Virus record (IMG/VR): IMGVR_UViG_3300045284_000200 | Coordinates: 1 to 56,854 of that record | Strand: one strand, 5' to 3' | Source of the DNA: a virus | DNA: 56,854 bases | In this document: piece by piece, positions 12,867 through 40,240 of the stretch | How the letters are laid out: each line of letters begins with the position of its first letter | Numbering within the stretch: the stretch's first letter is position 1 | Position numbers and translations under genes: made by a program | The notes under the pieces: model-generated | What the model was told of the DNA's origin: nothing | The model's database searches: none | Seen by the model: the letters and a program-made list of their open reading frames with translations, nothing else

Positions 12867-13683
12867 GTCGCCTCCCATTTTTTGGACCGGGAGTTATTTT
12901 TTTACGGGCCGAAATCTCGTCTGTCTCTTTCGCTTCGGTAGCGTATCTCCAGACATAACCACAGGCTTGGCGTCGCTTGCCATTGCACACTGCATGGATG
13001 TTCGTTCTTCCCCCTAACTCTGCCTCCGCGTGCTGGACTTGTTCAAATCGACGAATGAATTTCCAATCAAGTGAGAACTGTAACACGGCACGTTGCTGCC
13101 AAGGATTGGCCCTGTGACCCTTTGAAATGTTCTCACGCCACTCCTCCGAATATTTCTTTCCAGTCATTCTACGGCTCTGCTCCGCTTTCTGTTCTGGAGT
13201 GAACTTCCTTCCTTTGTGTCCATTCATCGCTTTGCGATGAGTGGCCAAACGCTCTGGCGACATCTTTCTACCCTTTAGAGATGCCGATACACGAGCCACG
13301 TATTCAGGATCACGCTTGATGCCTTGGCACGAATTAGATTTCGGAGATATGTTGTATCCTGTATCCGGTCGATAGCTCTGATAAAAATCCATCCAAAATT
13401 GTTCCCGTGCGATTAGCGTGGATTTGTCAGCGCCGGGAAGCTCTTCGATCACCTGCACCTCGAACGCATCTGGATTCTTGTCGAACGCCCTTTGGAAATA
13501 GCGACTGTGATGCACTCTCTTTGCAAGATCGTGGCGATGCTCAGTCCATCTGTGATTCAGGCGAACTCCACTGCCAACGTAGATTTTAAGATTGTCCCGG
13601 TTGATGATGGCATAGATTCCAGACCCCTTAACTGAATACGGAGACGTAAGGTGTCGATGGAACGTGTAGGTGCCATTTGCCAT
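12859..13683 (-). CDS. GIY-YIG homing-type endonuclease
   Basis: 274 residues. Around residues 22-37 the sequence G-S-G-I-Y-A-I-I ... K-I-Y-V-G-S-G is the GIY ... YVG signature. R-W-x-E-H-R-H-D-L follows, and a catalytic-type Glu falls near E-Q-F-W-M-D-F-Y. C-terminal repeats K-G-R-K-M-S-P-E and K-G-R-K-F-T-P-E-Q-K are NUMOD-like DNA-binding modules. The gene is squeezed between two genes: its start overlaps TerL's first possible start on the opposite strand, and its end overlaps the nozzle gene. Free-standing, with no intron boundaries recognised. Confidence 0.92.
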   Translation of the reverse strand: MANGTYTFHRHLTSPYSVKGSGIYAIINRDNLKIYVGSGVRLNHRWTEHRHDLAKRVHHSRYFQRAFDKNPDAFEVQVIEELPGADKSTLIAREQFWMDFYQSYRPDTGYNISPKSNSCQGIKRDPEYVARVSASLKGRKMSPERLATHRKAMNGHKGRKFTPEQKAEQSRRMTGKKYSEEWRENISKGHRANPWQQRAVLQFSLDWKFIRRFEQVQHAEAELGGRTNIHAVCNGKRRQACGYVWRYATEAKETDEISARKKITPGPKNGRRHG

Positions 13684-25598: not shown

Positions 25599-25877
25599 CT
25601 ATTTGGCTCCGTGGTTGAGGTTGGTTGGCTGTGGCGTTGGTGGTGTTTTTGGCATCTCGGCTACGTTTAGAAGACGGTTTATGAAATCAATGGCACCTTC
25701 AATACGATGGCAATTGGCGGCGGCTATTTCTGGATCAGATACAGAAGTAAACGACGTTACATAATCGACCAGTGCAGCATGGAGAGCTTCCCGAAACGGC
25801 GTCGAAAGGACCAGATCGCGATGGGCACCAGCGAACTGCTTCTTTTCCTGAAAATCCTTCTTGGGTGTGAGGTTCAT
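25599..25877 (-). CDS. Hypothetical 92-residue protein between portal and scaffold
   Basis: MNLTPKKDFQEKKQFAG... Helical in the middle (F-R-E-A-L-H-A-A-L-V-D-Y), Pro-rich at the end. Its start overlaps the portal stop (ATGA), so the two are translated together. Small helical proteins at this position are common in phages and may be minor head or scaffold accessory proteins. Confidence 0.72.
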   Translation of the reverse strand: MNLTPKKDFQEKKQFAGAHRDLVLSTPFREALHAALVDYVTSFTSVSDPEIAAANCHRIEGAIDFINRLLNVAEMPKTPPTPQPTNLNHGAK

Positions 25878-28207
25878 TCAGTCGTGGTTTCCGATTCGTG
25901 TTTGGCCTTTGCGCGTCCACGACGAATCTCCGCAGCCGTCTTTACGTCTTGGGCTTGGATTTCAGCCTGAGTGAACTGCGCTTCCTGAGCCATCTCAAGC
26001 TGATGCTGTTCCTGCTTTCGTTTCTCTTCCATTTCCCACTGAACTTGGCGCTGTGACGTCCTCTGGGCGTGAGATTCGGTGGCGTTCTTGGCCTTCACGG
26101 CCGCGTTCATTTCGATGCCCTTGATCTTCGCGACATCCTCCGGGGTGGGACCACCGTTCCCGTTTTGCTGTGCCGCCGCCTTCATCTGCTGCTGCAACCT
26201 TTGGGCGAACGCCTTCACCAGATTCATGATCTGGCCAAGTGCATCGGAATACTTCCGAACCCGCTCCTGATTGCCCTTGTCCTGCGAGATGATCTGGATC
26301 TGTTCCCCGATGGTCTGGCCAACGGTCTGCAACCCGACCAATTGTTCCGGTTTGGCCATGCCGCCAGTCTTCTGAATGCGCCCGACAATCATCGCCATCT
26401 CGGCCAGCAACACCTCGGTCACTTCCACCCGGTTGTCGGTCACTCCGAACTTCACCGGCAGGCCAAGCATCAGCGACCCCATTGCCACCATCGCCTTTTG
26501 CTTCGAGTCAGTGAGCTTGTCTGGTTCCTCTGGGACAAGACTCTTCGTAAGCCCAGGATCGTCGGTAGCCGACAGGGTGCTGATGCGGAGAATCTCACGC
26601 TGACTCTGTGGGTCGTAGAGCGGACGCCATTCCATGAGTTGTTGGGCGATGGCCATCTCCATCGTCTTGTTGCCGCTGCCCATCACTCGTTCCGGCTCCA
26701 GTTCCCATGCCTCTGGCACCAGCAACTTCTCTGGCACCCCAGCCTTCAGACAGTTGATACGAAACGTCCGTACATCCACATCTCTGGAATTCTTAATGCA
26801 GAACCTTCGGAATATCTCTTCGTACTCGAAGGTCTGGTACTGATACGCCTGAAGAAGAGCCGACGAGATGAGCGCCGTGGTCGCGTTAAGTTCGGCCCGA
26901 ACTTGGAACGCGGTCTTTTCGACATCTGGATTGGTCTTCCCTTGGCTCTGAACATAGGAGGATGAATTCTGGTTGATGATTAGCTGATTTTGATTCAGTC
27001 CAAGCTCGGCGAGTTGAGCATTATACTGCATCCGCTCTGCTGCCGGAAGGAACTGTACTGTCTCGTCGATGATACCTCTGCTGATAAGATTGATCTTCAG
27101 CGCACGTTCCGCGTCGTCCATCGACTTCACCCGCATGAACATCATCAAACTCTCAAACACAGCCTCACTGAACTTACAGCGAAGACGATTTTGCAGGTGA
27201 CACACTGCGTAGAGTAGGAATCCCAAGGAACGAACAGAGTGGTAACGAAACGGAGCGACAGCGGACAAGTCAGCGAACTGGAAATTGATAATCTCCGACA
27301 TCTTAGACCCGTACTTTCGAGTGCCGGGGTCGTAGAGAAATCCATCAGTGACGCCAGTCGTTTTCTTCGTGGGCATCACTCCACCGACTCCAGGCTGTCC
27401 ATAGGCATCGACGATGATTCGACGGTTCCAGCCTGATACCTTCTTATCATCGTTGAACCAGTAGAAGTCATAAGTGTCGATTGTTGGAACGGCATCGGAG
27501 GCGAACAATCCGCTATCGTCCTTCATCCGGCTTTCCATCTTCTCAGGGGACCATACCTGTGGCCATGTCGTTCCTGATAATGCTGCGCTTTCCGTGTCGC
27601 ACCACTTCAAGAGCGATTCCACCACGGGCATGTTCCAAGCAGGATCAACCTTCGGGCCGTGTGTAAGTCGATGAAGCTCGTAGGCAGTGTAAGATCGAAA
27701 GATGGCGAAGAACGGCAGGTTCTTCATGGTCAACAAGGTGTTCGCCGGGATCATCACGTCCTCAATCCCAATCGCATCCGGGCACCACATCTGCGACGTT
27801 TCCCACGCTGAAGGACCAATCCCGTGCAAACAGAGCATCGCGAACTTCGAGCGCAACGTCTCGAAATAGAGCGGCGACTGCTTCATGATCTTGTTGATTT
27901 CTCGGCTGACAATGCTGCCGTACTTCTGCCGCTTGTGAACCGGCCCCATGTTAGTCCGGGCAGTGAAGAACGCGCCGGGTTTCTGAAACGCATTACTGAA
28001 TTGCGAACGAGCGTCGTGAGCCAGCTTGGTTCCTTCGAGCGAGTTTACGTTGATCGCGATGTTGTTCTCCGTCTCTTCTTGGTCACTGTAGGGAGGACTC
28101 CCGTTGAACAACGAATCGATCCGTGCGCGATTTAGTGAGCGAGGATAATCTGCCAAGCGCAATTGGTAGCAGAGACTTTCTATTACGGGGGCTGTCGAAA
28201 AATTCAT
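25874..28207 (-). CDS. Portal protein
   Basis: 777 residues, typical length for a podovirus portal. Long, mostly helical, with a conserved-looking core (W-E-T-S-Q-M-W, D-V-M-I-P-A-N-T-L, M-S-E-I-I-N-F-Q-F). The C-terminal 150 residues are a Gln/Glu/Arg/Lys coiled coil, as in portals with a barrel extension. The dodecamer forms the packaging vertex, binding TerL and then the tail adaptor. It is the first gene of the virion block, downstream of the sugar block. Confidence 0.85.
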   Translation of the reverse strand: MNFSTAPVIESLCYQLRLADYPRSLNRARIDSLFNGSPPYSDQEETENNIAINVNSLEGTKLAHDARSQFSNAFQKPGAFFTARTNMGPVHKRQKYGSIVSREINKIMKQSPLYFETLRSKFAMLCLHGIGPSAWETSQMWCPDAIGIEDVMIPANTLLTMKNLPFFAIFRSYTAYELHRLTHGPKVDPAWNMPVVESLLKWCDTESAALSGTTWPQVWSPEKMESRMKDDSGLFASDAVPTIDTYDFYWFNDDKKVSGWNRRIIVDAYGQPGVGGVMPTKKTTGVTDGFLYDPGTRKYGSKMSEIINFQFADLSAVAPFRYHSVRSLGFLLYAVCHLQNRLRCKFSEAVFESLMMFMRVKSMDDAERALKINLISRGIIDETVQFLPAAERMQYNAQLAELGLNQNQLIINQNSSSYVQSQGKTNPDVEKTAFQVRAELNATTALISSALLQAYQYQTFEYEEIFRRFCIKNSRDVDVRTFRINCLKAGVPEKLLVPEAWELEPERVMGSGNKTMEMAIAQQLMEWRPLYDPQSQREILRISTLSATDDPGLTKSLVPEEPDKLTDSKQKAMVAMGSLMLGLPVKFGVTDNRVEVTEVLLAEMAMIVGRIQKTGGMAKPEQLVGLQTVGQTIGEQIQIISQDKGNQERVRKYSDALGQIMNLVKAFAQRLQQQMKAAAQQNGNGGPTPEDVAKIKGIEMNAAVKAKNATESHAQRTSQRQVQWEMEEKRKQEQHQLEMAQEAQFTQAEIQAQDVKTAAEIRRGRAKAKHESETTTE

Positions 28208-28220
28208 TCCACTTCGGAGG

Positions 28221-29006
28221 CTATGCCTGTGTTTGGGCTACGTCAACGCTGCTCGGAATGTCGTCATCGCCGTCCCATGCGTCTTTTCCACCAAAACATG
28301 AGCACTGCTGCTTGCGGTCTAGCGCTGCCATGAAATCGTCTTGGAGCGCACGATTCTCGATTGCTTCTGCACTGATACTCAGTATGGAGTGGCCTTTCCG
28401 TTTTTCTATGGCCTTCCATTCCGCCCATTGCGCTGGGTAATGGGCCATGACCTTTTCAGCTTGTGCGATTCTTTGATTCGGGCAGAAGAAGCAGTCGAAT
28501 CGCCCCATCTTCCGATACATTTCTATCAAGATTTTGAATCCAGCCTTCTCGCAAACCTTTACGCTCTCTGCCCTATCCACGTTGAGTGATTGCAGCGGAA
28601 AGATGTATTTTCGGTCTGGCTTGTCGTTGCGCTCGCAGAAATCATGGCCTCGCTGTTCCTCATCAGCGTTGTATCCAAGGGCGATACGTTGAGGCTTGGG
28701 TTGGCTGTTTGCGTAATCACGCAGAGCCTTTCGTTTCATACGGCGCGAGCAGTCGGTGTATCCTTGGCGGAGCATTCCACCTCTCTCGAAAAGGAACTCG
28801 TCGAACGTCATGCTTGGCTGGAGTCTAATTACAGTCAATCCGCAGATGGTTTCGATTTGCGAGATTGAGTCATACATTTCCGGGAATTGCTTCCCAGTAT
28901 CAGCCCAGATGACGTGCGCCGATGTGCTACGGATTTCTTCACGACAAAGGTAGATCATCGCTGCGCTCTCCATTCCACCTGAAAAGCTGTAAATGTCGGT
29001 TGTCAT
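28221..29006 (-). CDS. PP-loop ATPase, PAPS-reductase-like
   Basis: 261 residues. The PP-loop S-G-G-M-E-S (9-14) is a variant of the SGGxDS signature of PAPS reductases and related adenylating enzymes, with Glu in place of Asp. Then W-A-D-T-G-K-Q-F-P-E (34-43) matches the family's 'D-T-G ... F-P-E'. Cys at about 86, 124, 172, 175, 235 and 237 could bind a cluster or zinc. Family members reduce activated sulfate or thiolate RNA or DNA; which applies here is unknown. It lies next to the glycosyltransferase block and is coupled by ATGA to the following gene. Confidence 0.82.
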   Translation of the reverse strand: MTTDIYSFSGGMESAAMIYLCREEIRSTSAHVIWADTGKQFPEMYDSISQIETICGLTVIRLQPSMTFDEFLFERGGMLRQGYTDCSRRMKRKALRDYANSQPKPQRIALGYNADEEQRGHDFCERNDKPDRKYIFPLQSLNVDRAESVKVCEKAGFKILIEMYRKMGRFDCFFCPNQRIAQAEKVMAHYPAQWAEWKAIEKRKGHSILSISAEAIENRALQDDFMAALDRKQQCSCFGGKDAWDGDDDIPSSVDVAQTQA

Positions 29007-29842
29007 AACGCTGGCGGGAAGCCGATCTGCTGGTAGAAGTTCACCCCTGTAACATCAATGTGGTGCGGCATCTTTCGGCCTTCGTGCTTAGGATGGAAGA
29101 TTGGCCCCAACGTCGTGATGTCCACAAACCGGCGACGATAGGTGTGCCAAAGGAAGTTCAGCATCCATTGATCCCAGCGTTGGTGGCCTATACGAAACTG
29201 CTGTGGGATCGCCTTGTAAACCTGCTTCCACACATCGGGTTTCGCGCAGAAGAAGTCGCAGCCGTAGTCAACCACCCGCGCCCGGAAGTAGTCCTCGGTC
29301 TTCGGGTCGAACTCCAACCGTTGACTCGTCATCGCCACCGCTCCCTTGGCCCATGCTTTGTTGACCATCACCTTGAGGTCTGGTGCCACAACGATGTCGG
29401 CGTTGAGCAAGCAGACTGGAACGAAATGAGCCGAAGCAACGAGTGCCATTGATGCGATGTTAGGGAAATCTAGGCTCGGGATGAAATCAGTGGTTGGAGA
29501 TGCAAGTCGTTCATCGCGCTTTCCGAATAGAAGAATACGGTCGAACACCAAGTCCCATGAGCGTTTGGCGCGTAACTGATTCTCGGCAACCTCGGCGGAA
29601 TCGTCGAGAGCGCGGAATGATGAGACAGCGGTCAGCCCTGAGATGTACGGCTCGAACATGGCGGTTGTTGTCCCAGGAAATCCGACAGGATGAGGCTTGG
29701 TCTGTTCCAACTCGTCGTTGAGGTAGACTTCTCGAATGTGCCTTTGGAGATGTAAGGTAAGATTACCATTTACTCCGCCAATCATCTCGCCACACAAAAA
29801 GCAGCGATCCTCGAAGGTAAACCATGAATTTACGGTTCTCAC
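29003..29842 (-). CDS. Glycosyltransferase-like protein (GT-A type, probable)
   Basis: 279 residues from GTG 29842, chosen because GGAGG lies eight bases upstream and GTGA overlaps the preceding stop. The first ~35 residues carry F-E-D-R-C-F-L-C-G ... H-L-Q-R-H, a zinc-finger-like pair. The core has L-L-N-A-D-I-V-V (a likely D-x-D-type metal site), Y-G-C-D-F-F-C and a W-D-Q-W motif, which suggest a GT-A fold. It is the first of five sugar-transfer proteins in the block. Donor and acceptor unknown. Confidence 0.66.
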   Translation of the reverse strand: MRTVNSWFTFEDRCFLCGEMIGGVNGNLTLHLQRHIREVYLNDELEQTKPHPVGFPGTTTAMFEPYISGLTAVSSFRALDDSAEVAENQLRAKRSWDLVFDRILLFGKRDERLASPTTDFIPSLDFPNIASMALVASAHFVPVCLLNADIVVAPDLKVMVNKAWAKGAVAMTSQRLEFDPKTEDYFRARVVDYGCDFFCAKPDVWKQVYKAIPQQFRIGHQRWDQWMLNFLWHTYRRRFVDITTLGPIFHPKHEGRKMPHHIDVTGVNFYQQIGFPPAL

Positions 29843-30036
29843 GTTGATTCCTCCGACATGCGACGTTCCTCTTCTGGTGTAGGCACCCACTGCTTTACGA
29901 CGACAGCTTTGGTCAATTCCGGCGCGATGAACTCCACAAGGCAACGACGGGAACAGAACGCATGACGCTCATCGTTACGGGTTACGTGATACCACGGCAG
30001 TTCATCACTTGGTTTTCCGCATTTGTCGCAGTTCAT
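29839..30036 (-). CDS. Small zinc-finger protein
   Basis: 65 residues from ATG 30036 (MNCDKCGKPSDELPWYH). C-D-K-C-G-K-P ... H ... F-C-S-R-R-C-L-V-E-F is a four-Cys zinc-ribbon or TRASH-like fold. Coupled on both sides by four-base overlaps. Possibly a nucleic-acid- or protein-binding cofactor; role unknown. Confidence 0.72.
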   Translation of the reverse strand: MNCDKCGKPSDELPWYHVTRNDERHAFCSRRCLVEFIAPELTKAVVVKQWVPTPEEERRMSEEST

Positions 30037-30230
30037 ACGATTAGTGGTCCTTCCTCGTGTTGTCTGCACATACGAATGATGAAATCACCGATTACCATAT
30101 CAGCATCTCCGAATTTCGCCTTGAAGGCACACTTCTCGTCTTTCGTCATGGTTTTGAGTCCTCCGAATTCACTCATCTCGATTGCTACGTCGATGTGAGA
30201 ACGAAGGCGTTTAAGATCATCGACTGTCAT
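30033..30230 (-). CDS. Hypothetical 65-residue protein
   Basis: MTVDDLKRLRSHIDVAIEMSE..., starting at ATG 30230 inside the upstream gene's last codons (ATGA). Predicted helical, one Cys. Not recognised. Confidence 0.68.
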   Translation of the reverse strand: MTVDDLKRLRSHIDVAIEMSEFGGLKTMTKDEKCAFKAKFGDADMVIGDFIIRMCRQHEEGPLIV

Positions 30231-30973
30231 AGTGTCACCACGTTGAACGCTTTCTTCTTCGCTTCCTCGGCCCACGTCGGAGAGTGCTCCTTGTCGGCAC
30301 CATCGTAACCCGGTGAGCAACTCCAGGCCGCGCCCTTGTCACCAGAGATTAGGCCGCATCGGCCGTAGTTCTTCGCATTCTTGGATCGCGTGTAGTCGGC
30401 TCCAAAGTAACGGGCGTGCAGCAGCTTCATCCCTGTCTCGCGTCCGACGATTGGATTGCAGTTCTCAAGATCATGCTTCCCTCGAATCCAGTTGATCCTG
30501 ATGTCTGGCTGGAAAACCACGGGCTTAGAATAAACCGGCGCCGCAACTCCCATCGGATTCAGTTCGTAAATCTGGCTTTTACCGTCGTCCTTCGGGAACC
30601 CGTCTCCCAGCAAGTTGTAACCGGACGGCTTGATCACCTGTATCCCGACCGACTTCGCCAGACTCAGGGTGCCCAGCATGTCCGGCGAATAGATGAACTC
30701 GTCACTGTCAGGGATCATCACCCAATCGAACTTTCCACGAGCCTTCGGATACCACTCCTGCCAGTGCGCAAGGAACAGGTCTTCGTTGATCCCGCTCTCG
30801 TGTGGCCACTCGCGTACGAGCACCTTTGGATGGGCGTTGAGCATCTCGCGAGTGCCGTCGGTACTGTGATCGTCGAAAGCGGAAATCTCATCGGCGAACG
30901 TCTCGTAGTGGCGTAAAAAATACGGAAGGACATCGCGGCAATTGTAGGTCAGGACGAAAATTAGGATCTTCAT
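30227..30973 (-). CDS. Glycosyltransferase family 2-like protein (paralogue of 31839-32576)
   Basis: 248 residues from ATG 30973 (MKILIFVLTYNCRDVLPYF). A GT-A-like start (V-L-T-Y-N-C-R-D) is followed by A-F-D-D-H-S-T-D-G-T-R and W-V-M-I-P-D-S-D-E-F-I-Y, the D-x-D-type motif, as in GT2/GT92-like glycosyltransferases. About the same architecture as the enzyme at 31839-32576 (shared L-R-H-Y, R-E-W-P-H-E-S-G-I, Y-F/R-A-x-G-A-D-Y). Probably adds a sugar to a phage or host acceptor. Confidence 0.82.
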   Translation of the reverse strand: MKILIFVLTYNCRDVLPYFLRHYETFADEISAFDDHSTDGTREMLNAHPKVLVREWPHESGINEDLFLAHWQEWYPKARGKFDWVMIPDSDEFIYSPDMLGTLSLAKSVGIQVIKPSGYNLLGDGFPKDDGKSQIYELNPMGVAAPVYSKPVVFQPDIRINWIRGKHDLENCNPIVGRETGMKLLHARYFGADYTRSKNAKNYGRCGLISGDKGAAWSCSPGYDGADKEHSPTWAEEAKKKAFNVVTL

Positions 30974-31653
30974 GGTGCGATGTGTCGGATGACTTCCAGT
31001 AATGGGGAAGCTCCGTTCGCGTGAAATAGGCACGGATACTCGCTTGTGTCCTTCGCTTTCGGTCTTGGCTCACTGAAGTCCAAAAGCTTGTCCGATCCCA
31101 TATTCATGCAGAAACACAGCGAGCAGGTGCGATCCAGTTCGATGGGGTGTTTCCCCGATAGGAACATGTCCACGACGATCTGTTGATCGTCCTTCTCCCG
31201 CTTCGAGGCGATGGCCGCAAGTTCCTCCGTGAACGGAAGAGCCGCTTCAGTCGTCGCGATCCACATCCCGGCGTTGAGATATTTGCAACGGTGAATCGTC
31301 GGCGGGTAGAGCGCCGCCTGTTCCTGCTTTGGCCAGCAGTAGCACTCGGAGGCAAACACGATGGGCGAGTTGAGCTTCTCGAACTTCGCCATGATTTCGC
31401 CCATGCCGGCCGCGAACACCACGTCGTAGGAATCGGTGAAAACGAAGTGCGTGTATTTGTCGGCGTTCTCGCGGACGAACCGCGCCTGCCCTTCGCTCTT
31501 GCGATACCACGGAATCGTCGTCCAGTCGGCGCCGGGCCAGTCCTCCGAGTCGAAGTTCTGCGGGTCGAGTCCCTGACGCTTCGCGGTGTCGAGGAAGGCG
31601 CCCAGATACTTCTTCGGTGTCGGTCCCCATGTGCTTACGAGTACTGGTTTCAT
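30970..31653 (-). CDS. PLOD/procollagen-glycosyltransferase-like protein
   Basis: 227 residues. Y-T-H-F-V-F-T-D-S-Y-D-V-V-F (67-80) carries the D-x-x-D-type metal motif. C-Y-C-W-P, K-Y-L-N-A-G-M-W-I-A (124-133) and D-D-Q-Q-I-V (155-160) follow, then an L-F-H-A-N-G ending. This order (D-S-Y-D, S-A-E/S-E with C-W-P, Y-L-N-x-G, D-D-Q, H-x-N-G) matches the glycosyltransferase domain of procollagen-lysine glycosyltransferases (PLOD/LH3), also known from giant viruses. Recognition is by motif order, not by search. Confidence 0.78.
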   Translation of the reverse strand: MKPVLVSTWGPTPKKYLGAFLDTAKRQGLDPQNFDSEDWPGADWTTIPWYRKSEGQARFVRENADKYTHFVFTDSYDVVFAAGMGEIMAKFEKLNSPIVFASECYCWPKQEQAALYPPTIHRCKYLNAGMWIATTEAALPFTEELAAIASKREKDDQQIVVDMFLSGKHPIELDRTCSLCFCMNMGSDKLLDFSEPRPKAKDTSEYPCLFHANGASPLLEVIRHIAP

Positions 31654-31656
31654 AAT

Positions 31657-31842
31657 TCAACCGCCGTGAATTGTTACAATCGCTTCGTTGATAGCAGTCT
31701 GGATGTGGATGGCCAATTGAGCCGTTCGATCTGGCCAGTCGCCTACTGGCTTACGCATCAATTCTTCGTGCTCCTGAACTTCGTGGAGCCACTCTAAAGC
31801 AGCCTTCTTGGCGATGTCACCGATGCCGATGCTTGTGCTCAT
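31657..31842 (-). CDS. Hypothetical 61-residue protein
   Basis: From ATG 31842 (MSTSIGIGDIAKKAALEWL), overlapping the neighbouring stop (ATGA). A helical protein with conserved-looking E-W-L-H-E-V-Q-E-H-E. Not recognised. Confidence 0.66.
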   Translation of the reverse strand: MSTSIGIGDIAKKAALEWLHEVQEHEELMRKPVGDWPDRTAQLAIHIQTAINEAIVTIHGG

Positions 31843-32576
31843 ATCACCTCCGGCCATTCCTTACCAATTGCCTCATCGAACCATGCGACGCTGTGATGCC
31901 CGGTGTACTCAGGGCTCGTGTTGGTTCCAAGATTCAACGCCCTACACCTTTCCGGCACTCGTGCCCAGTTGCGGGCATGTCGCCATCTCACGTAATCCGC
32001 ACCGAGAGCGCGGTAGTGGAGCAGTTTGATCTCGGCGGTGGGTGTACTTCGAGGGTTGAACTGAGCGTAGTCCGGCCCGTGCCGACCAACCGTCCACCAC
32101 ATGTGCTTCCTAAATACGGCCGGCTTGCTCCAGATGCCGTCAGGGAATCCCGTGCGAACCTCATCGTAAATCTGGCCCTCAGTCGTCGGGAACGACTTCG
32201 ATACCATCGTGTAGCCTTGGATCTGTGGCACTTCAACGTCATCGGCGAGATACCGCCGCAACACGTCCTTGATGGCAGGATGGTAAAGGAACTCATCGGC
32301 ATCGACGAATACGATCCAATCCGCTTTGCCGCGGGCTTCCTTCCACGCTTCATTGGCGAACTCCAGAAACTTGTCATCCTGGATGCCGCTCTCGTGTGGC
32401 CACTCGCGCAACTCCGCAGTGTGACAAGACCGGATGATGTCCCGTGTTCCGTCAACGCTCATATCGTCGTAGAACACGAACTTTGTAACCCACGGTGCGT
32501 AGTGCCTGAGAAAATAAGGCATCAGCCGAGACTCATCACGGCAGATGCAAAATAGCCAGATGGAGAGTTCCTTCAC
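31839..32576 (-). CDS. Glycosyltransferase family 2-like protein
   Basis: 245 residues. F-C-I-C-R-D-E-S-R-L-M-P-Y-F-L-R-H-Y, then V-F-Y-D-D-M-S-V-D-G-T-R, and W-I-V-F-V-D-A-D-E-F-L-Y carry the nucleotide-sugar and D-x-D elements. It shares segment order and phrases with the enzyme at 30227-30973, indicating a paralogous pair. ATGA overlap on both sides. Confidence 0.83.
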   Translation of the reverse strand: MKELSIWLFCICRDESRLMPYFLRHYAPWVTKFVFYDDMSVDGTRDIIRSCHTAELREWPHESGIQDDKFLEFANEAWKEARGKADWIVFVDADEFLYHPAIKDVLRRYLADDVEVPQIQGYTMVSKSFPTTEGQIYDEVRTGFPDGIWSKPAVFRKHMWWTVGRHGPDYAQFNPRSTPTAEIKLLHYRALGADYVRWRHARNWARVPERCRALNLGTNTSPEYTGHHSVAWFDEAIGKEWPEVI

Positions 32577-33103
32577 GCGATTTCTCTCTGCGCTGAAATG
32601 GGGTTATCGGTAGTTGGGAAGTTCAATCTGGCGAATCGTCCAAACAGTTTCACCGCTTCAGCATCGTATGCACGGGCCGCATCTTCTCGCTTCCCGAACG
32701 AACCCAAGTACCGCTGCTTTCCAGACAGATAGATCGCTGCGGACCACCTGCCTTTTGTTTTTATGGTGGGATAGACACCCTTGAACCCAGACTTGTTATT
32801 GGAGCCTGCGGGCTTGTTCCTTGTGTTCTCCAGCGGAGTACATGGACGGAGGTTTTGGTTCGTGTTGTTAAGGCCGTTGCCGTCTCTGTGATCTACCATC
32901 TGCTGTGTATCCAGAATGAACTGAGCCATCTGCTGAATTACCCTCTTCCCGTTCACTCTCACCACTCGCAATGTCCGTTGGGCGTAGAAGCCTCCATTCG
33001 ATCTTTTTGTAGCGTGCCATTTGTGCTGTGTGACGCGATCAAAGTCGCACTCATCGACGATGGCGAATTGTCCCTGTGTCAATGGCACCAGCTTCGTGTT
33101 CAT
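32573..33103 (-). CDS. AP2-HNH homing-type endonuclease
   Basis: 176 residues from ATG 33103 (MNTKLVPLTQGQFAIVD), which overlaps the upstream radical-SAM stop as ATGA. The HNH core shows V-D-H-R-D-G-N-G-L-N-N-T-N-Q-N-L-R-P-C and N-K-S-G-F-K-G-V. The AP2-like C-terminus has W-S-A-A-I-Y-L-S-G-K ... L-G-S-F-G-K-R-E-D-A-A-R-A-Y-D-A-E-A. Inserted between two coupled genes without disturbing either junction, as selfish elements can be. Confidence 0.93.
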   Translation of the reverse strand: MNTKLVPLTQGQFAIVDECDFDRVTQHKWHATKRSNGGFYAQRTLRVVRVNGKRVIQQMAQFILDTQQMVDHRDGNGLNNTNQNLRPCTPLENTRNKPAGSNNKSGFKGVYPTIKTKGRWSAAIYLSGKQRYLGSFGKREDAARAYDAEAVKLFGRFARLNFPTTDNPISAQREIA

Positions 33104-33888
33104 GCTAACGCTTCCTGAACCCCAGCCTCTTTTTCCCATTCTTCCTTATTCTTGTTCTGATGATGCGGAACGTCTGGGCCTCGGCCACCGGAACAGATCT
33201 TGCACGACTCTAACGGATGTCTTCGGTTCAGGAATTCCTGCAATTTCTCATCGGTCATTCCGGGAATAGGTATTCCATCTACGTGTGGGTCGATGTCCTT
33301 CCAGCGTTCAGCACGTTTCATGTATTGCTTAGGCCAGAAGGCGGAAAGCGGACACAGATAAAAATAGCCGGAATGAATCGTTAAACAGCGATTCCACCCG
33401 CAACCATGATACGTGCTTCCGTCTGGCACGGACGCAAACACTGGCTTGAAGCTGTTGATTTCCTGCGGGCGCACGAAAAATCCCCACTCATCAGCCTTCC
33501 TCTGAATCCAAGGAACAATGTCAGGATCTAGTCCGGGATAACAACTCATGCGAAGTTCACAATGCCCATCTCGAAGCAACGCCCACAGATCGTCGCCCAT
33601 CCGCTTCAAAAGTTTTCCGTTTGTCAGAAGACCAGATTGCTTCGCGATTCCGCTTTCAATGCAAAGCCGAAGAAGTTCAACAACGTCTGGGTGAATCAAA
33701 GGATCTCCACCTTGAACCAGGAGAAGTTTCGTTCTGAGATGATTTTTCATCACCTGCAAATCCTCTTTAAGAACTTCCACCGGCATGTAGTAAACATCAG
33801 CAAAGGCGGAGCCGTGATTGCATTGGGCGCACCTTAAATTGCAGTGTCGAGTCGCGTTGATTTCACAGCCGTAGTCCGTGTTCACCAT
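33100..33888 (-). CDS. Radical SAM protein
   Basis: 262 residues. The start is ATG 33888, preceded by GGAGG. The cluster motif is H-C-N-L-R-C-A-Q-C (C16, C20, C23 from this start). L-V-Q-G-G-D-P-L-I-H-P-D is the glycine-rich strand behind it. C-terminal C-G-W-N-R-C, Y-L-C-P and C-K-I-C resemble a SPASM/twitch auxiliary region. Radical-SAM proteins of this size act in sugar, peptide or cofactor modification; adjacency to glycosyltransferases and methyltransferases suggests sugar or peptide tailoring. Substrate unknown. Confidence 0.85.
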   Translation of the reverse strand: MVNTDYGCEINATRHCNLRCAQCNHGSAFADVYYMPVEVLKEDLQVMKNHLRTKLLLVQGGDPLIHPDVVELLRLCIESGIAKQSGLLTNGKLLKRMGDDLWALLRDGHCELRMSCYPGLDPDIVPWIQRKADEWGFFVRPQEINSFKPVFASVPDGSTYHGCGWNRCLTIHSGYFYLCPLSAFWPKQYMKRAERWKDIDPHVDGIPIPGMTDEKLQEFLNRRHPLESCKICSGGRGPDVPHHQNKNKEEWEKEAGVQEALA

Positions 33889-33910
33889 AGATGCCTCCAA
33901 GTTTTGTTGT

Positions 33911-34528
33911 TCACACCTTCAGGATACCAATCCCACCATGCGGAATCACCCCTTTGTATTTTGAGTGTTCTTCAGTAGCGATAATCTCCCTCTTATCGCC
34001 TTTGAGTTCATTCCAGAATCTCGTCACCTGCAACTCCGGTGGCTGGACGCCATGCGGTCCGATGTTCGCAAGCGGGTTGATGTCGTGGAACACGATCCAG
34101 CCGCCGGGCCGGACGTGCGGCGCCCAAAGCTCGAACTCCTTGGCGATGGTTTCGTAGTAATGCCCGTCGTCGATGAACAGCAGATCGATTGGGCAACCGA
34201 AGGAGTCCTCCATTACCCGTTTTACGCACGCTTCCGTAGTGGCGTCGTCCAGAATAAGTTGAAGATTGTGGCCGTAAGGACGGCTGACGTATGTGTTGTG
34301 ATCCTCGATGTCGATGGAGACGGTCTTCTTAGAGGTAACGAGACTCAGCAGGGCTCCGGTAAATCCTCGGAACGTGCCAAGCTCTACGGTGCATTCTGGC
34401 TTCAATTCGTCGAGCACCAGCGCGAGGAACGTCCGCATCTCCCATTCGTGTTGCTGGATGTTGATGAGGTTGTGATCGGCGAAGATGGCGGTCAACGCGC
34501 TCTCAACGTAGGTTGGTAGTGGGTTCAT
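33911..34528 (-). CDS. Class I SAM-dependent methyltransferase (CmcI/Methyltransf_24-like)
   Basis: 205 residues. V-E-L-G-T-F-R-G-F-T-G (SAM-binding), S-I-D-I-E-D, then D-L-L-F-I-D-D-G-H-Y-Y-E-T and P-G-G-W-I-V-F-H-D-I are the hallmarks of small-molecule or sugar O-methyltransferases. The tail K-G-V-I-P-H-G-G-I-G-I-L-K-V closes the sheet. Likely methylates a sugar or peptide made in this block. ATGA overlap with the next gene. Confidence 0.85.
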   Translation of the reverse strand: MNPLPTYVESALTAIFADHNLINIQQHEWEMRTFLALVLDELKPECTVELGTFRGFTGALLSLVTSKKTVSIDIEDHNTYVSRPYGHNLQLILDDATTEACVKRVMEDSFGCPIDLLFIDDGHYYETIAKEFELWAPHVRPGGWIVFHDINPLANIGPHGVQPPELQVTRFWNELKGDKREIIATEEHSKYKGVIPHGGIGILKV

Positions 34529-34749
34529 GTAACTTGTGGCTGATCATGGTACGCAGTTGTTAGCGGAATCAGCTTAATCAGTAGATTATTTGGAATAATT
34601 GGACATCCGAATCGATCAACCTCAGTACACCAACACAGACCTTCAAAACAAAGTTCACCACGAATCTTGTCAGGAAACGGCTCCCACCGAACGCCATGAA
34701 AGCACATCGCCTGAAGCAGAATCGAATGGCTATTGTGTTTTCGTTTCAT
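34525..34749 (-). CDS. Hypothetical 74-residue Cys-containing protein
   Basis: From ATG 34749 (MKRKHNSHSILLQAMCF). Cys at several positions (C-F-H-G, L-C-F, L-C-W-C) and a trailing Y-H-D-Q-P-Q-V-T. Coupled by ATGA on both sides. Not recognised. Confidence 0.65.
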   Translation of the reverse strand: MKRKHNSHSILLQAMCFHGVRWEPFPDKIRGELCFEGLCWCTEVDRFGCPIIPNNLLIKLIPLTTAYHDQPQVT

Positions 34750-34931
34750 ATCAGGAACTTCTTTCCGCAACGTTTACACTCAATCGGAATCATGTGCCAC
34801 GGATGACCATCATGGCCATCTGGATAATCATGGAAATCGATCAGCCCTTTGTTTGCGGACTCTTCGCAAACGATTCTCATATTGAGACGGAATCTAGCCA
34901 GAAACCAACGAATGAACTTAGGTAGTTTCAT
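34746..34931 (-). CDS. Small zinc-ribbon-like protein
   Basis: 61 residues: a basic hydrophobic N-terminus (F-I-R-W-F-L-A-R-F-R) and a C-terminal H-M-I-P-I-E-C-K-R-C-G-K-K-F, a one-sided Cys pair that may bind zinc together with the H-D/H-x-D-G-H stretch before it. Coupled on both sides. Role unknown. Confidence 0.68.
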   Translation of the reverse strand: MKLPKFIRWFLARFRLNMRIVCEESANKGLIDFHDYPDGHDGHPWHMIPIECKRCGKKFLI

Positions 34932-35131
34932 GCTTTCTGATAGACCGTCATTTCTTTGCCAGCGCGACCTTCGCGCACCCGCTTGAGTTCACCAGTGCTC
35001 ACCATCCTCGATAACATCCGACGATACTGGACTGAGTTTTCAAAATCGCAGACGCAGAACTCCCTTCCGGTTCCGGCCACGTCGCGGATCGACTTGACCA
35101 TTGCGCCGTAAACTCGGTCGGTCTTTCTCAT
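34928..35131 (-). CDS. Small winged-helix-like protein
   Basis: 67 residues. V-Y-G-A-M-V-K-S-I-R-D-V ... N-S-V-Q-Y-R-R-M-L-S-R-M-V-S-T-G-E-L-K-R-V-R resembles a compact winged-helix or MarR-like DNA-binding fold. ATGA overlap with both neighbours. It could regulate the block; unproven. Confidence 0.66.
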   Translation of the reverse strand: MRKTDRVYGAMVKSIRDVAGTGREFCVCDFENSVQYRRMLSRMVSTGELKRVREGRAGKEMTVYQKA

Positions 35132-35781
35132 GGCTTCACGACGAGCGCCTTCTCGCCTTCGGTGAGAACGGGAAGAAGACCATGCTCCGCGGTGAACTCT
35201 GTCCAGTCGGCTACTACGCCCGGGAACCAGCCCGTAAGGTCATCCACGAGCATCCCGCCGCCGCTTGGCAGCAAGTCCCAGTATGCCTCGTAGTCCCTCC
35301 GAACATCTCCTCTTTCATGCGACGCATCTACATAAATTAGCCCCGGAACAAGACCGAGCCATTTAATCACACGCGCTCCGTTGATGCTGTCGATTGCGAA
35401 CGGAACGATCACGTCCTGACACCCGTTGGCGATGACGTTGGCCATGAAGCGATAGAAAAGGTCCGGCCTGCCGAAGTGCGGCCGTATCTTCTCGCGAGCG
35501 CCGAGGAAATGGTCGTAACCGAAGGCCCAAGTATCCACACAGAGGATCGCGCAATCTCGCTTCTGAGCCTTGATGAGCTTGGCCATGTGGATTGCCGATT
35601 CGCCGCAGAAACTACCGACTTCGATGATGATCGATGGGTTCAGACGACCGATACACTGGCCGAATATCTCGCGCTGTGCTCCACCGTCGTTGTACCAGAC
35701 GCCTTCCCAACCGTGGGGAAATCCGACGTAGGGATTTACGCCTTGGTGGATCTTGTCGAGTAACAGGCTGAATGGAGTCAT
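35128..35781 (-). CDS. Class I SAM-dependent methyltransferase (Methyltransf_24-like)
   Basis: 217 residues. I-I-E-V-G-S-F-C-G-E-S-A (SAM-binding), L-C-V-D-T-W-A-F-G, then L-I-Y-V-D-A-S-H-E-R-G-D-V and G-M-L-V-D-D-L-T-G. Same general family as the enzyme at 33911-34528 but with different insertions. Probably a sugar or small-molecule methyltransferase of the block. Confidence 0.84.
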   Translation of the reverse strand: MTPFSLLLDKIHQGVNPYVGFPHGWEGVWYNDGGAQREIFGQCIGRLNPSIIIEVGSFCGESAIHMAKLIKAQKRDCAILCVDTWAFGYDHFLGAREKIRPHFGRPDLFYRFMANVIANGCQDVIVPFAIDSINGARVIKWLGLVPGLIYVDASHERGDVRRDYEAYWDLLPSGGGMLVDDLTGWFPGVVADWTEFTAEHGLLPVLTEGEKALVVKP

Positions 35782-36014
35782 ACCGGTGTGCCGTCCTCTC
35801 GTTCGTAGGTGGCGGCGAAAATGTCAGGCTTGCAGGGATAACGCTCTCCTTTTACGCCAGTGATTATCCAATCTCCATCTGATACGCGAAGTGGTCCTTC
35901 AAGGGTTTTGATGATGGCGTTGCCCTTACTATCGTATTCGACACCTTCAGGGAGCGGCGCAATGGCCGAGAACTGCACAGCTTCGATGACGACGGGTTTC
36001 TTTCGGTATTTCAT
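35778..36014 (-). CDS. Phage conserved protein (MKYRKKPV-type)
   Basis: 78 residues from ATG 36014. It opens MKYRKKPVVIEAVQF and contains I-K-T-L-E-G-P-L, G-D-W-I-I-T-G-V-K-G-E and Y-P-C-K-P-D-I-F-A-A-T-Y. This combination is a widespread phage family of unknown function, usually in early or accessory regions. Confidence 0.8.
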   Translation of the reverse strand: MKYRKKPVVIEAVQFSAIAPLPEGVEYDSKGNAIIKTLEGPLRVSDGDWIITGVKGERYPCKPDIFAATYEREDGTPV

Positions 36015-36805
36015 AGCATTTTCAAAAGGCTCTCGGGAGTGCATTCAAACGGCTGGTCTTTGTAGTACGGCTTTTGCGGTTGTTCTGGCGAGGCATGACT
36101 CCAGAACTGAACGACCTTGTGCGGCTTCGGGAACTGACCGAGTGCTTGGTCTGGCCAGTTGTATTCGTCTCGGAAATGGCGCCACGCGACTTCACCCAAC
36201 GTGTTGAACTCGCAGAACGTCTGTGGAAAGGCGTTCTCGCAAGACTTGATGTAGTCTTCACAACTCTTGCCGGTGTGCGCTTCGATGCACTCGCGAGCCT
36301 TTGCGTAAGTCTTGCGGTAATGAACCGCCTGCGGCCGACGCATGAACTCGTGGTCTGACGTTCCACCCAAGGCTTTCTCCACCCCATCCTTCCACATTCC
36401 AAGGTTCGCCTGTTGTTCCGTGACGAGCCAGTGATAGGTGGCATGGAGCAGGACCGGTTTGCCATCGTTGATGTAATCCTCCGGTGTCGTCGGCTCGACG
36501 AACATCACGTCGGAATCCATGTGAAAGATGTAGTCCGCGTCGGTGAACTGGTCGGAGCACATGATGACGTGCTCGTGGCGCAGGAACCCTTTCCCCGGCC
36601 AGTCCTCGTAGCACTGCACCTTGGACCCAATGCCTTCGATCTGGGACAGTTCAGTGAGTAGCGGTGTGATCGCGGACAGATCCTCCTCCGGCACGAGTAC
36701 CTTCACTTGCCGAAATCCGGTGGCAAATTTCTTGCACGAAAGGAGTGCGTAGCGGAGCCACGGGTAATGTTTGGCGCACGAGACGATCAGGATGTCAGTG
36801 GTCAT
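36011..36805 (-). CDS. Glycosyltransferase-like protein
   Basis: 264 residues from ATG 36805 (MTTDILIVSCAKHYPWL). V-K-V-L-V-P-E-E-D-L, Y-I-F-H-M-D-S-D-V-M-F (D-x-D motif), then L-L-H-A-T-Y-H-W-L and H-E-F-M-R-R-P. The fold and D-x-D match GT-A-type transferases that move a sugar from a nucleotide donor. ATGA overlap with the preceding MKYRKKPV gene. Confidence 0.78.
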   Translation of the reverse strand: MTTDILIVSCAKHYPWLRYALLSCKKFATGFRQVKVLVPEEDLSAITPLLTELSQIEGIGSKVQCYEDWPGKGFLRHEHVIMCSDQFTDADYIFHMDSDVMFVEPTTPEDYINDGKPVLLHATYHWLVTEQQANLGMWKDGVEKALGGTSDHEFMRRPQAVHYRKTYAKARECIEAHTGKSCEDYIKSCENAFPQTFCEFNTLGEVAWRHFRDEYNWPDQALGQFPKPHKVVQFWSHASPEQPQKPYYKDQPFECTPESLLKML

Positions 36806-36814
36806 GTTGGCCAA

Positions 36815-37027
36815 TCATCGACGCTTGCCGGATGCTGGAAGGCTGTGTGTGGATGCGATGACTTTTGTTTCGACCGTCAGGACTTCATGCAGCACATAGC
36901 GACCTACGCGCTTCTTTTCTCCAATACTGGCGGTTTCATCGGCGGTCTTGTTCACTTGCAGCCATTCGTCTGGAGTTCCTTTTTCCTCTTGGCTGACGAA
37001 TATTTGGTCTGGGAATATTTTGTTCAT
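36815..37027 (-). CDS. Hypothetical 70-residue protein
   Basis: MNKIFPDQIFVSQEEKGTPDEW..., overlapping the double glycosyltransferase stop by four bases. Beta-rich with a Lys/Glu centre. Not recognised. Confidence 0.66.
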   Translation of the reverse strand: MNKIFPDQIFVSQEEKGTPDEWLQVNKTADETASIGEKKRVGRYVLHEVLTVETKVIASTHSLPASGKRR

Positions 37028-38442
37028 ATTGTTAGTCGGTCGATTAACGAACCGCTTTTGTCCCGATGGAAGACGACGGCGGTTTTTGGGATTTGGTTGA
37101 TGAGATGGTTGCTACCGGGAGGGAAATTTGGAGCCTCGCCTTCGAGTGCGTTGAGATAGCCGTTCTTGATCCCCCAGTAAGCGACGGCGATGTGACCAAT
37201 GTCCTTCACCTTGCCTTCCATTTCGTCTTTCCACTCTACGTCAAACGCGTTCGCGCAATGAGACATTGTGCGTGGCAAGAGATCGGGTGTATTCGGTGGA
37301 TGAATTGTCGGAGTCCCATTGCAATGCATCCCCTTCCCGACAATCGGCCCGGCGAAAGGCATTCGGCAGTTGTCGTAAACGTTCTGGAGCACGGTGAGCC
37401 ATTGTTTCTTCAGCGGGATCGCATCGGCTTCCAACCACAGCCACGAACGATCAAGCTTCTGCATCACCCTGGCCGCGTGTTGCCATGCGTAGGTCTGCGG
37501 AAAACCTGTTCCCGGTGGGATTCGATACGAGGTCTGCTGCACGTTTCCGAACACCTCTCTGGCCAGATGGAGTGATTCTCTCACAACTTGACCATTGGTG
37601 GTGAGGTCGAAGGAGAGCAGGCAATCGTGCGTCTTGTCCGCGCCGAGCGTCTTCATCCACTTCAGGTTCTTGATGAGTTGCAGCACGTCCATCATGCAGA
37701 ACGGCAGAACCACCACGAAGTTGTCGGAGGTGACAATGTTGAACTTTTTCTTCAGCAACCCCATCAGCGTGCCGTCCTTGTTCCGGTGATAGATGACAGC
37801 TTCCGGAGGGAGTTGATCCAATGTGAAAGCGTTTCGAGGTGTTTCGGCCGTTCGATTCTCGACGAAGGTCGGGGCCAAGTCCTTCTCACCGTAGAAATGG
37901 TGGATGAGCTTGGTGTGGGTGGCCAATGGCACTATAGCTTCCGCACTGGACACGTCCCATGCCTTGGCGGGTTGCGCTTCGATGCAAGGTCCGATCAGGT
38001 CGAATGCGTCAGGCGGATAAACGGCGATGCCAGACATGACCTTCATCACCTGCTCACGGTACATGTAGAGTTGTCCAAAGTAGCGGCTTCCCTTGCGCAT
38101 CTTGTCGACGGCCACCAGCCAGCCTCGCTTCACCGGGATTGCATCGGGCTCCAGCCAAAGCCAATCCACACCCTTCTCCTTGCAGTGCTTGGCGGCTACA
38201 AGCCAGAGCGCATTGGCTCCGGCTGGCCAGCCGGTGACTGGTTCGGCAGTGGTGATGAATGAAGCGCCTCTGAATGCTAGATTGGCCAAAGTGAGTGCGT
38301 CCACGGCTTTACCCCAATCGACCGCAGCATCGACGACGAGAAGGCAGTTGAATTCCTGACAGCCGCCGAGTTGGCCGATGAACTCAAGGAGCGCGAGCGC
38401 CTGATCGGCGTCGTCGGGGCAGAATGGAACGACGACGATCAT
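37024..38442 (-). CDS. Tandem double glycosyltransferase-like protein
   Basis: 472 residues made of two homologous halves. Half one (about 1-235) has V-V-V-P-F-C-P, W-L-W-L-E-P-D-A-I-P (94-103) and A-V-I-Y-H-R-N-K-D-G-T-L (215-226). Half two (about 240-472) has V-V-V-L-P-F-C, W-L-W-L-E-A-D-A-I-P (334-343) and A-V-V-F-H-R-D-K-S-G-S-L at the end. The E-x-D-A-I-P block is the likely D-x-D-type donor site. An internal tandem duplication gives two active-site-like halves in one chain. Confidence 0.82.
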   Translation of the reverse strand: MIVVVPFCPDDADQALALLEFIGQLGGCQEFNCLLVVDAAVDWGKAVDALTLANLAFRGASFITTAEPVTGWPAGANALWLVAAKHCKEKGVDWLWLEPDAIPVKRGWLVAVDKMRKGSRYFGQLYMYREQVMKVMSGIAVYPPDAFDLIGPCIEAQPAKAWDVSSAEAIVPLATHTKLIHHFYGEKDLAPTFVENRTAETPRNAFTLDQLPPEAVIYHRNKDGTLMGLLKKKFNIVTSDNFVVVLPFCMMDVLQLIKNLKWMKTLGADKTHDCLLSFDLTTNGQVVRESLHLAREVFGNVQQTSYRIPPGTGFPQTYAWQHAARVMQKLDRSWLWLEADAIPLKKQWLTVLQNVYDNCRMPFAGPIVGKGMHCNGTPTIHPPNTPDLLPRTMSHCANAFDVEWKDEMEGKVKDIGHIAVAYWGIKNGYLNALEGEAPNFPPGSNHLINQIPKTAVVFHRDKSGSLIDRLTI

Positions 38443-38666
38443 TCGCCGGGCACCTCGATAATCGGCGGTGGATATTCCGCTTGATCGGCGTGGGTAAGAA
38501 GCGATACGGCTAGAGCCCTCGCTTCCCTAGGCTTCAATTTCATCCGTGCTATTGGCGGATTGAACACAATCCTGACGGTGCCCTCGGCATGACCAAGTTG
38601 AATGTTCACCGGCTGTTCAGACTCAGGCTGCCTGCCAGGAACGTGGATTCGATTGTTGTCAGACAT
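38439..38666 (-). CDS. Hypothetical 75-residue protein
   Basis: From ATG 38666 (MSDNNRIHVPGRQPESEQPVN). Contains V-R-I-V-F-N-P-P and R-E-A-R-A-L-A-V-S-L-L, the latter common to small phage proteins of unknown role. ATGA overlap with the double glycosyltransferase. Confidence 0.7.
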   Translation of the reverse strand: MSDNNRIHVPGRQPESEQPVNIQLGHAEGTVRIVFNPPIARMKLKPREARALAVSLLTHADQAEYPPPIIEVPGE

Positions 38667-38919
38667 TGGGTTTTCCTTTCGCTTCGATGCCCTCGAACTC
38701 GGCGACGCGCTCGACGATGCGTAGAACGGCAGATGTAAACTTAACATCTAGTTGGTTCCCATGAAAATCATCGCGGTTGATTACGAACCGTATCAACCGA
38801 TTCAAGTCGCTGGCCACTTCGTTAGCCCATCCCTTATCGTGCTCCTCAGAGAACTCGTAGATCGCATTGAGTCTTTCAAGAACCTCTTCGGCGGTGAGTT
38901 GTTTGGTTTCAGTTGGCAT
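38659..38919 (-). CDS. Hypothetical 86-residue helical protein
   Basis: From ATG 38919 (MPTETKQLTAEEVLERLN). Acidic, helical, with an R-L-I-R-F-V-I-N-R-D-D centre. Overlaps both neighbours slightly. Not recognised. Confidence 0.66.
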   Translation of the reverse strand: MPTETKQLTAEEVLERLNAIYEFSEEHDKGWANEVASDLNRLIRFVINRDDFHGNQLDVKFTSAVLRIVERVAEFEGIEAKGKPNV

Positions 38920-39227: not shown

Positions 39228-39551
39228 TCAGCCTTCGAGTTGTAGCGTCGGATGTTCCTTTCGTATTTCCGCCAACCTGTTCTGAGCACGCTGAAGCTCC
39301 GTTTGAAGACCGCGCATCTCGGCGTGTCGGGCTGTGAGTTGGTAAAGCTCCTCGATGCTCGTAAGCAGCCCGCGCTTATGATCCTCGACGAGTCCCTCCG
39401 CACGCGACTGAAGCTCCTTGGTTGCCGTCGCCGCATCTTCTCCTTCATCCAGTGTGGCCGTCATGGACACTTCCGGTCGGAGATTCGAGTATTGTTCGTG
39501 GGGATGGTTGAACGTACGACCGGCAGTGACGGTGATGGTGTTAATTTTCAT
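39228..39551 (-). CDS. Hypothetical 107-residue early-type protein
   Basis: From ATG 39551 (MKINTITVTAGRTFNHPHEQ). It begins with a beta strand and H-P-H, then S-M-T-A-T-L-D-E-G-E-D, then a Gln/Glu helix. The opening resembles conserved phage proteins of unknown function, typically early. Overlaps the next gene by four bases. Confidence 0.72.
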   Translation of the reverse strand: MKINTITVTAGRTFNHPHEQYSNLRPEVSMTATLDEGEDAATATKELQSRAEGLVEDHKRGLLTSIEELYQLTARHAEMRGLQTELQRAQNRLAEIRKEHPTLQLEG

Positions 39552-40240
39552 GTGTCTTTTAGGATCCAGCAGCGAGGATCGAGTTTGGTTTTGGTGTCTT
39601 CTGATGTGTGGGCGAGGACGTGATCCATCGGCACCCATACCTTGAGCTTGAGCGGGCAGTCACAGACGGAACAGACGGTGAGTTTATCGTCGTGCGGAGT
39701 GCGCAGTTGAAGATCTCCGCGGATCTCCAGTTGCGTGTGAATCTTGTCCGCGATTGGTTTCGTGAAATAGTCGAGGATGCTTCCGCCGTTGTTCTTCGGG
39801 CAGCCCGCACAAATCGACGCCCGGGCGTCCGCGAGCGATTGCTGGACAGCCTTGCCACCACTCCCGAGCCAATCGAGGAGCACGCCAACTCCAGCCGCCA
39901 CGTTTCTAACTGCTCCCACAACACTTGTTTTTTTTTGAGCCGGTGGTGGCATCACATAGGTCGGAGCGGCCGGCGTCGCGTCGTCCTGGATGATGAAGTT
40001 CAACCAGCCGCCAGCGATGCAACGAGCCGTGTTGTACTGATCTACCTCGTGCTCCACACCCTCACGATCCAGACGCCAGCCATGTCTCTCCGCCAGGAAC
40101 GAGTTGGCCTGACGCAGCATCATCACCTGCTCAACGACGTGGTTAAAGGAGCCGACGATGGGTGAAGACTGCCCGGTTTCAGGCTGGAGAAACTGAAACG
40201 AGTAAGGCGGATGTTCGGTGCGTGACTTCAGATGTGCCAT
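39548..40240 (-). CDS. Cys-rich hypothetical protein
   Basis: 230 residues. The C-terminal third has C-A-G-C-P, C-S-V-C-D-C-P-L and C-W-I-L, suggesting a zinc-rich domain; A-A-G-V-G-V-L-L in the middle is a hydrophobic helix. The N-terminal part (H-P-P-Y-S-F-Q-F ... V-E-Q-V) is separate. Not recognised; likely host- or DNA-binding. Confidence 0.7.
   Translation of the reverse strand: MAHLKSRTEHPPYSFQFLQPETGQSSPIVGSFNHVVEQVMMLRQANSFLAERHGWRLDREGVEHEVDQYNTARCIAGGWLNFIIQDDATPAAPTYVMPPPAQKKTSVVGAVRNVAAGVGVLLDWLGSGGKAVQQSLADARASICAGCPKNNGGSILDYFTKPIADKIHTQLEIRGDLQLRTPHDDKLTVCSVCDCPLKLKVWVPMDHVLAHTSEDTKTKLDPRCWILKDT

Follow-up and report, generated by a model that had tools for sequence, protein, structure and literature searches.

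A family-wide slot of soluble glycosyltransferase and methyltransferase genes beside the portal gene of uncultured phages, with the virion as their probable target

Why would an uncultured phage family with a 55-kb genome set aside as much as about 11 kb for sugar enzymes, and on what would those enzymes act? The question is raised by the IMG/VR virus record IMGVR_UViG_3300045284_000200, here called the window, which is 56,854 bp long and carries an identical 127-bp sequence at both ends, so that it is probably a complete genome. On the minus strand, between 28.2 and 38.4 kb, six glycosyltransferase (GT) genes, encoding seven GT domains in all, lie in one run with genes for two Methyltransf_24 proteins, a radical S-adenosylmethionine (radical-SAM) protein and a PP-loop protein, and the run leads into the portal gene (Table 1; genes are named by their lower coordinate). 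The run occupies a slot in a family that we recognize from 112 portal matches in IMG/VR: the borders of the slot are constant, its core is constant in one clade, and its other contents change. We consider it moderately probable that this is a soluble glycan-assembly slot whose enzymes attach a methylated oligosaccharide to a protein of the virion.

The original prediction for this DNA described a large coupled sugar-modification block, a description that stands except for the inclusion of the PP-loop protein (see below). With gene starts corrected by comparison with homologs (29003 begins near 29659, not at 29944), exact four-base overlaps are found at 12 of the 19 gene junctions between 25599 and 38747, which bears out the claim that neighbours are mostly joined in this way, and several small open reading frames (ORFs) belong to the coupled run. 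Because the arrangement is conserved in relatives, chance is excluded as its source. A promoter scan gave no signal above that of shuffled sequences. The portal was assigned from its size and from gene order, having no profile match, and the label "podovirus-like" that had been attached to the phage was not established. A putative terminase large subunit gene (13670-15508) lies on the plus strand, within a late region that otherwise runs on the minus strand.

Portal searches of IMG/VR found 12 close loci, and the full set of matches with a broader profile. No portal match was present in 50,697 phage records, and megablast and tblastn detected no cultured relative for the block, the portal or 37024; a search for cultured relatives of the terminase gave 28% identity over only a third of its length. 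All eight close genomes carry 37024, 36011 and 29003, which are as constant as the portal and terminase, whereas the intervening genes change from genome to genome. Where the window has its Glyco_tranf_2_4, PLOD-type and radical-SAM genes, other close genomes have FkbM or other Methyltransf_24 proteins, and the complete set of transferases plus radical-SAM gene seen in the window recurs among the eight only in L013/G008 (62-90% identity), with part of it in L009/G005.

Across the wider family, the slot, taken from the homolog of the cysteine-rich protein 39548 to the portal, could be read in 56 contigs and has a median length of 4.8 kb. Lineage profiles detected a GT in 32 of these slots, a methyltransferase in 30 and at least one of the two in 42, a count that rises to 50 when three large unnamed clusters (one of them DUF5672), judged GT-like by sequence inspection, are added. 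In a set of 100 slot proteins that bore no other label, Pfam recognized GT2, GT9, DUF5672, radical SAM, RmlD, epimerase, TylF, cytidylyltransferase and transaldolase. Individual slots hold a sugar C-methyltransferase with all three domains plus an epimerase, or RmlD, GT9 and cytidylyltransferase, and heptosyltransferase-type enzymes occur in some. Radical-SAM genes of several distinct clusters were seen in 13/56 slots (including L186, L189, L200, L205, L207, L225, L171, L172, L175 and L178). In the eight close genomes, glycan-enzyme profiles found 49 genes within the slot and none outside it, a result that demonstrates clustering rather than the absence of unrelated sugar enzymes, since the profiles were built from slot genes. 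A second phage group has the genes on the downstream side of the portal; there, a 36011 homolog adjoins a 37024 homolog that consists of a single domain. The 39548 protein is found family-wide at the slot border, and in the second group it lies beside the terminase.

For the core proteins, sequence searches had to be complemented by structure. Pfam gave no significant match for 29003, 36011 or 37024, so the earlier call of these proteins as GT-like had rested on motifs, and sequence-profile searches (A1-A4) against PDB sequences returned chance matches only, which made fold comparison necessary. AlphaFold models of 29003 and 37024 (mean pLDDT of the pair 69 and 72.5) both turned out to be GT-A transferases and not some non-transferase fold, which would have counted against the original prediction. 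The 29003 model aligned with the Leptospira GT 6p61 at Z 14.7 over 171 residues and with WrtF at Z 14.4, and its LNADIVV sequence is invariant in relatives; the protein is thus modelled as a GT-A fold with an acidic motif. Each half of 37024 aligned with glycogenin and other GT-A enzymes at Z of about 13-14 (per-half VIA alignments, root-mean-square deviation 3-4 A). The best full-length Foldseek matches were LARGE1, LH3 and chondroitin synthases, with a poor global superposition whose high deviation arises because two domains are forced together, and the fold assignment relies on the per-half alignments, made within the fold families of the match lists. Both halves retain WLWLE[PA]D as well as a C-terminal HRxKxG, and both are predicted to be GT-A folds with an acidic metal motif. 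The third core protein, 36011, has only weak GT profile matches; its DSD and WSH motifs are invariant across eight relatives, a distant homolog matches Stealth_CR2/DUF6492, and we regard it as a putative GT.

The history of the tandem protein can be read in part from a tree of the 37024 halves and their single-domain homologs. The N halves form one group and the C halves another (99% and 100% of bootstrap trees), and the single-domain homologs fall on the N side, most of them with the N-half motifs (EPD, HRNKDG). The tree, whose root is unfixed and in which some long branches come together, is most simply explained by a single ancient duplication, seemingly within these phages, followed by divergence of the C half.

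The accessory enzymes were more readily assigned. Pfam matches above the cut-offs were obtained for Glyco_tranf_2_4 at 30227 and 31839 and for GT_PLOD at 30970 (E 3e-23), and 30970 also matched LH3 by sequence (E 2e-12), as well as the R699 chain. All the GT-like genes of the original prediction (29003, 30227, 30970, 31839, 36011 and the tandem 37024, all on the minus strand) are therefore upheld by Pfam, AlphaFold folds or conserved motifs, and Pfam likewise supports the two class I methyltransferases (Methyltransf_24 at 33911 and 35128) and the radical-SAM protein. The latter, 33100, has a Radical_SAM match over the cut-off (E 1e-11) and the motif CNLRCAQC, features that identify it by sequence as a member of this superfamily; a search of 289 Verrucomicrobiota genomes recovered only the common domain, with no informative relative.

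Two genes within the run are better viewed as passengers. The predicted PP-loop, PAPS-reductase-like protein 28221 does carry a PP-loop (SGGMES) and a PAPS_reduct Pfam match, but it scores far under the cut-offs of the cysH and PAPS reductase models and the ECGxH active-site motif was not seen in it, so that it appears to be a PP-loop relative rather than a CysH. Among solved structures it comes closest to a chain named PptA (21fy_C, E 2e-7), and a literature search on PptA turned up nothing of use. Membership in the glycan pathway was rejected for 28221: of the relatives scanned, L210 alone has a homolog, which lies on the opposite strand. It is probably an insertion passenger, because it is not conserved and because the same junction, between the 29003 homolog and the portal, carries unrelated genes in relatives: HNH genes, a C5 cytosine methylase (L007:8475-9311) or a DPPY-motif methylase (L013:8800-9345). 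The second probable passenger, 32573-33103, has HNH and AP2 domains, both under curated cut-offs, and L013 has a different HNH gene at the matching place.

How might these enzymes act together? In the reading that we favour, 37024, 36011 and 29003 would be the conserved transferase core of the assembly, and the interchangeable transferases and sugar-type O-methyltransferases, joined in the window by the radical-SAM enzyme, would extend and cap the chain. The enzymes are soluble and would apparently draw on nucleotide sugars of the host. They are translationally coupled on a strand that runs into the portal, coat and tail genes, and would most likely build the chain late in infection on a virion protein, the late timing, the order and methylation of the sugars, and the virion acceptor all being presumed, and exchange of genes in the slot would alter the structure of the glycan, as serotype loci do. 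The observations behind this proposal are the enzyme families, the coupling, the division into core and variable content, the fixed position of the slot throughout the family and the hydropathy of the proteins: none in the block has a transmembrane segment, and the most hydrophobic 19-residue stretch of any GT averages 1.84 and falls in a core strand of 29003. Among the three targets offered by the original prediction (virion proteins, host surface glycans and DNA bases), the virion is the best fit on indirect grounds, namely one strand coupled toward the portal and a coat candidate (21658), and three core genes. Phage-encoded GTs, one feature of virion-glycosylation systems, are present in the window.

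Several points weigh against this proposal. We infer the virion acceptor and predict the glycan from genes alone, and late expression is read from strand and gene order alone. No homolog of 37024 was found in the 50,697 phage records, which should include phages with known glycosylated virions. The profiles behind the 49-to-0 count have the origin noted above, and DNA, or lipid-linked precursors at the membrane, may also be substrates of soluble GTs. A more specific version, which we offer tentatively and judge unlikely, is that the slot is a virion serotype locus making a glycan with a common core, in which 37024 would be a two-site synthase alternating two sugars and accessory exchange would yield coats that differ antigenically or in their receptor interactions, much as bacterial capsule loci do.

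The contents of the slot, which in sister phages include C-methyltransferase, RmlD and heptosyltransferase-type genes, also resemble O-antigen and capsule loci. This speaks for a rather improbable alternative: that the block alters the surface polysaccharide of the infected host, either to block superinfection or to release progeny from receptor-rich debris. The absence of transmembrane segments tells against a membrane-type system of this kind. Neither an acyltransferase nor a flippase or membrane-anchored GT, the latter two characteristic of gtr-type serotype conversion, was observed. Furthermore, the genes share the strand of the morphogenesis genes and would thus come late for exclusion; the core is as fixed as virion genes, being present in all eight genomes.

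The PP-loop and radical-SAM proteins suggest a different target, since enzymes of both kinds are found in 7-deazaguanine pathways. They could make a handle on a modified DNA base that the GTs would then glycosylate, in a T4-like or TET-linked manner; phage GTs act on DNA in known systems, according to PMC6024577 and PMC12838424 and to Pyle et al. 2024 as cited in PMC12619734. We find this quite unlikely. Profile scans of the window and seven relatives found the thymidylate synthase/dCMP hydroxymethylase family PF00303 in 0/8 records (positive in 9/14 control genomes), the DpdA/TGT-type transglycosylase PF01702 in 0/8 (14/14 controls), and TET/JBP PF12851 in 0/8, with no control genome over the cut-off, so that the sensitivity of this last scan was not gauged. 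A C5 cytosine methylase occurs in one relative only, the PP-loop gene is not conserved, and six GT genes with changing C- and O-methyltransferases would in our judgement be unusually many for a DNA glycan. Finally, a loose island of auxiliary metabolic genes with no shared product, held by homing endonucleases and an insertion-prone junction, is very unlikely: HNH genes are indeed frequent in the slot and the portal-side junction accepts unrelated genes, but most profile-matched slot proteins are sugar enzymes, three genes form a core, and the junctions are coupled by four-base overlaps.

The hosts of these phages are probably Verrucomicrobiota, as judged from sequence matches. Among the species genomes scanned, the portal was found in two cellular contigs only (L155 and L156), both from Verrucomicrobiota metagenome-assembled genomes (MAGs), at 52% identity in a Pedosphaera sp. 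and 44% in a Verrucomicrobiia bacterium. The contig of the latter carries a 39548 homolog, two GT-like genes (by sequence inspection) and the portal in the same order. When 388 Verrucomicrobiota genomes were searched with the portal, only the MAG already known came back, and since MAG bins may be contaminated, the host assignment is to be treated as a lead.

Virion glycosylation has, to our knowledge, been shown experimentally in only a few phages. Should the product of the slot reside on the particle, the structure of the glycan would be a phage trait open to rapid exchange, and the slot supplies natural pairs of phages for testing the role of the sugar. A further outcome is a GT family that Pfam does not model, represented by 37024 and new here, along with a probable group of uncultured Verrucomicrobiota phages.

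Table 1. Genes of the slot and its borders, listed in the direction of the minus strand.
Coordinates	Strand	Feature
39548..40240	-	Cys-rich protein, conserved, no assigned function; upstream border of slot
38439..38747	-	Small protein, 102 aa counted from first start; opens coupled run; homologs in several relatives
37024..38442	-	Core; tandem double GT-A glycosyltransferase, 472 aa; E-[PA]-D and C-terminal H-R-x-K-x-G per half; 8/8 genomes
36815..37027	-	Small ORF, 70 aa, no assigned function; 4-base overlap with 37024
36011..36814	-	Core; putative GT, 267 aa; invariant DSD, C-terminal WSH
35778..36014	-	Small ORF, 78 aa, no assigned function
35128..35781	-	Accessory class I SAM methyltransferase; Methyltransf_24/rhamnosyl O-methyltransferase-like
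34525..35131	-	Three small ORFs, no assigned function (34525-34770, 34746-34931, 34928-35131)
33911..34528	-	Accessory class I SAM methyltransferase; Methyltransf_24 and RMNT_CmcI, both over cut-off
33100..33900	-	Accessory radical-SAM protein; CxxxCxxC cluster motif, more Cys at C-terminus
32573..33103	-	HNH/AP2 homing endonuclease, probable passenger
31839..32576	-	Accessory GT; Glyco_tranf_2_4/GT92-like
31657..31857	-	Small ORF, 66 aa, no assigned function
30970..31653	-	Accessory GT; PLOD/LH3-type GT domain
30227..30973	-	Accessory GT; Glyco_tranf_2_4
29003..29659	-	Core; GT-A glycosyltransferase, about 218 aa; LNADIVV motif; 8/8 genomes
28221..29006	-	PP-loop/PAPS-reductase-like protein, probable insertion passenger
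25874..28207	-	Putative portal protein; downstream border of slot; 67-90% identical in close relatives

Two of the enzymes invite comparison with known transferases. With the collagen glycosyltransferases LH3/PLOD and ColGalT, 30970 shares clear membership of the GT_PLOD family, but it lacks a hydroxylase domain. Collagen glycosylation by 30970 was considered and rejected, as the repeat of the sole collagen-like protein (9514-10653) contains no lysine and no such repeat exists in the seven relatives, two of which carry this GT. The repeat of this fibre-like protein is threonine-rich (GATGATG...) and unique to the window among the eight genomes; its threonines could themselves be glycan acceptors. 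Like LARGE1 and the chondroitin and heparosan synthases, 37024 has two GT-A domains per chain, with acid and His motifs in both halves, but identity to these proteins is about 10%.

Among phages, the closest functional parallel is provided by the mycobacteriophages Che8, Corndog and Myrna, whose own GTs glycosylate capsid and tail-tube proteins according to PMC12363180 and PMC12619734, citing Freeman et al. 2023. The GTs are phage-encoded in both cases, with capsid or tail as the target (only proposed for the block described here), whereas the window has more GTs, adds methyltransferases, swaps its contents within a fixed slot and is known from genes alone; tblastn of 37024, 30227 and 30970 found no mycobacteriophage match. 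Cyanophage S-SCSM2R (PQ898602, 224-237 kb) likewise has consecutive GTs, including GT25, with a dTDP-4-dehydrorhamnose 3,5-epimerase and a radical-SAM neighbour 25% identical to 33100, but it is a 244-kb phage, rich in 2OG oxygenases, with no portal within the stretch read and no 37024 homolog. Caudovirales GX15bay (MK557849, from mangrove soil; deposited with PMC6460857) is closer in size, being a 52-kb uncultured phage with seven consecutive GT and methyltransferase genes shortly before the terminase and portal; it was rejected as a family member, its portal and terminase not being detectably related, and represents an independent lineage. Given the virion glycosylation of mycobacteriophages and the GT clusters of S-SCSM2R and GX15bay, this kind of block is already known, and what is new is its organization as a conserved core with swappable contents in a fixed slot.

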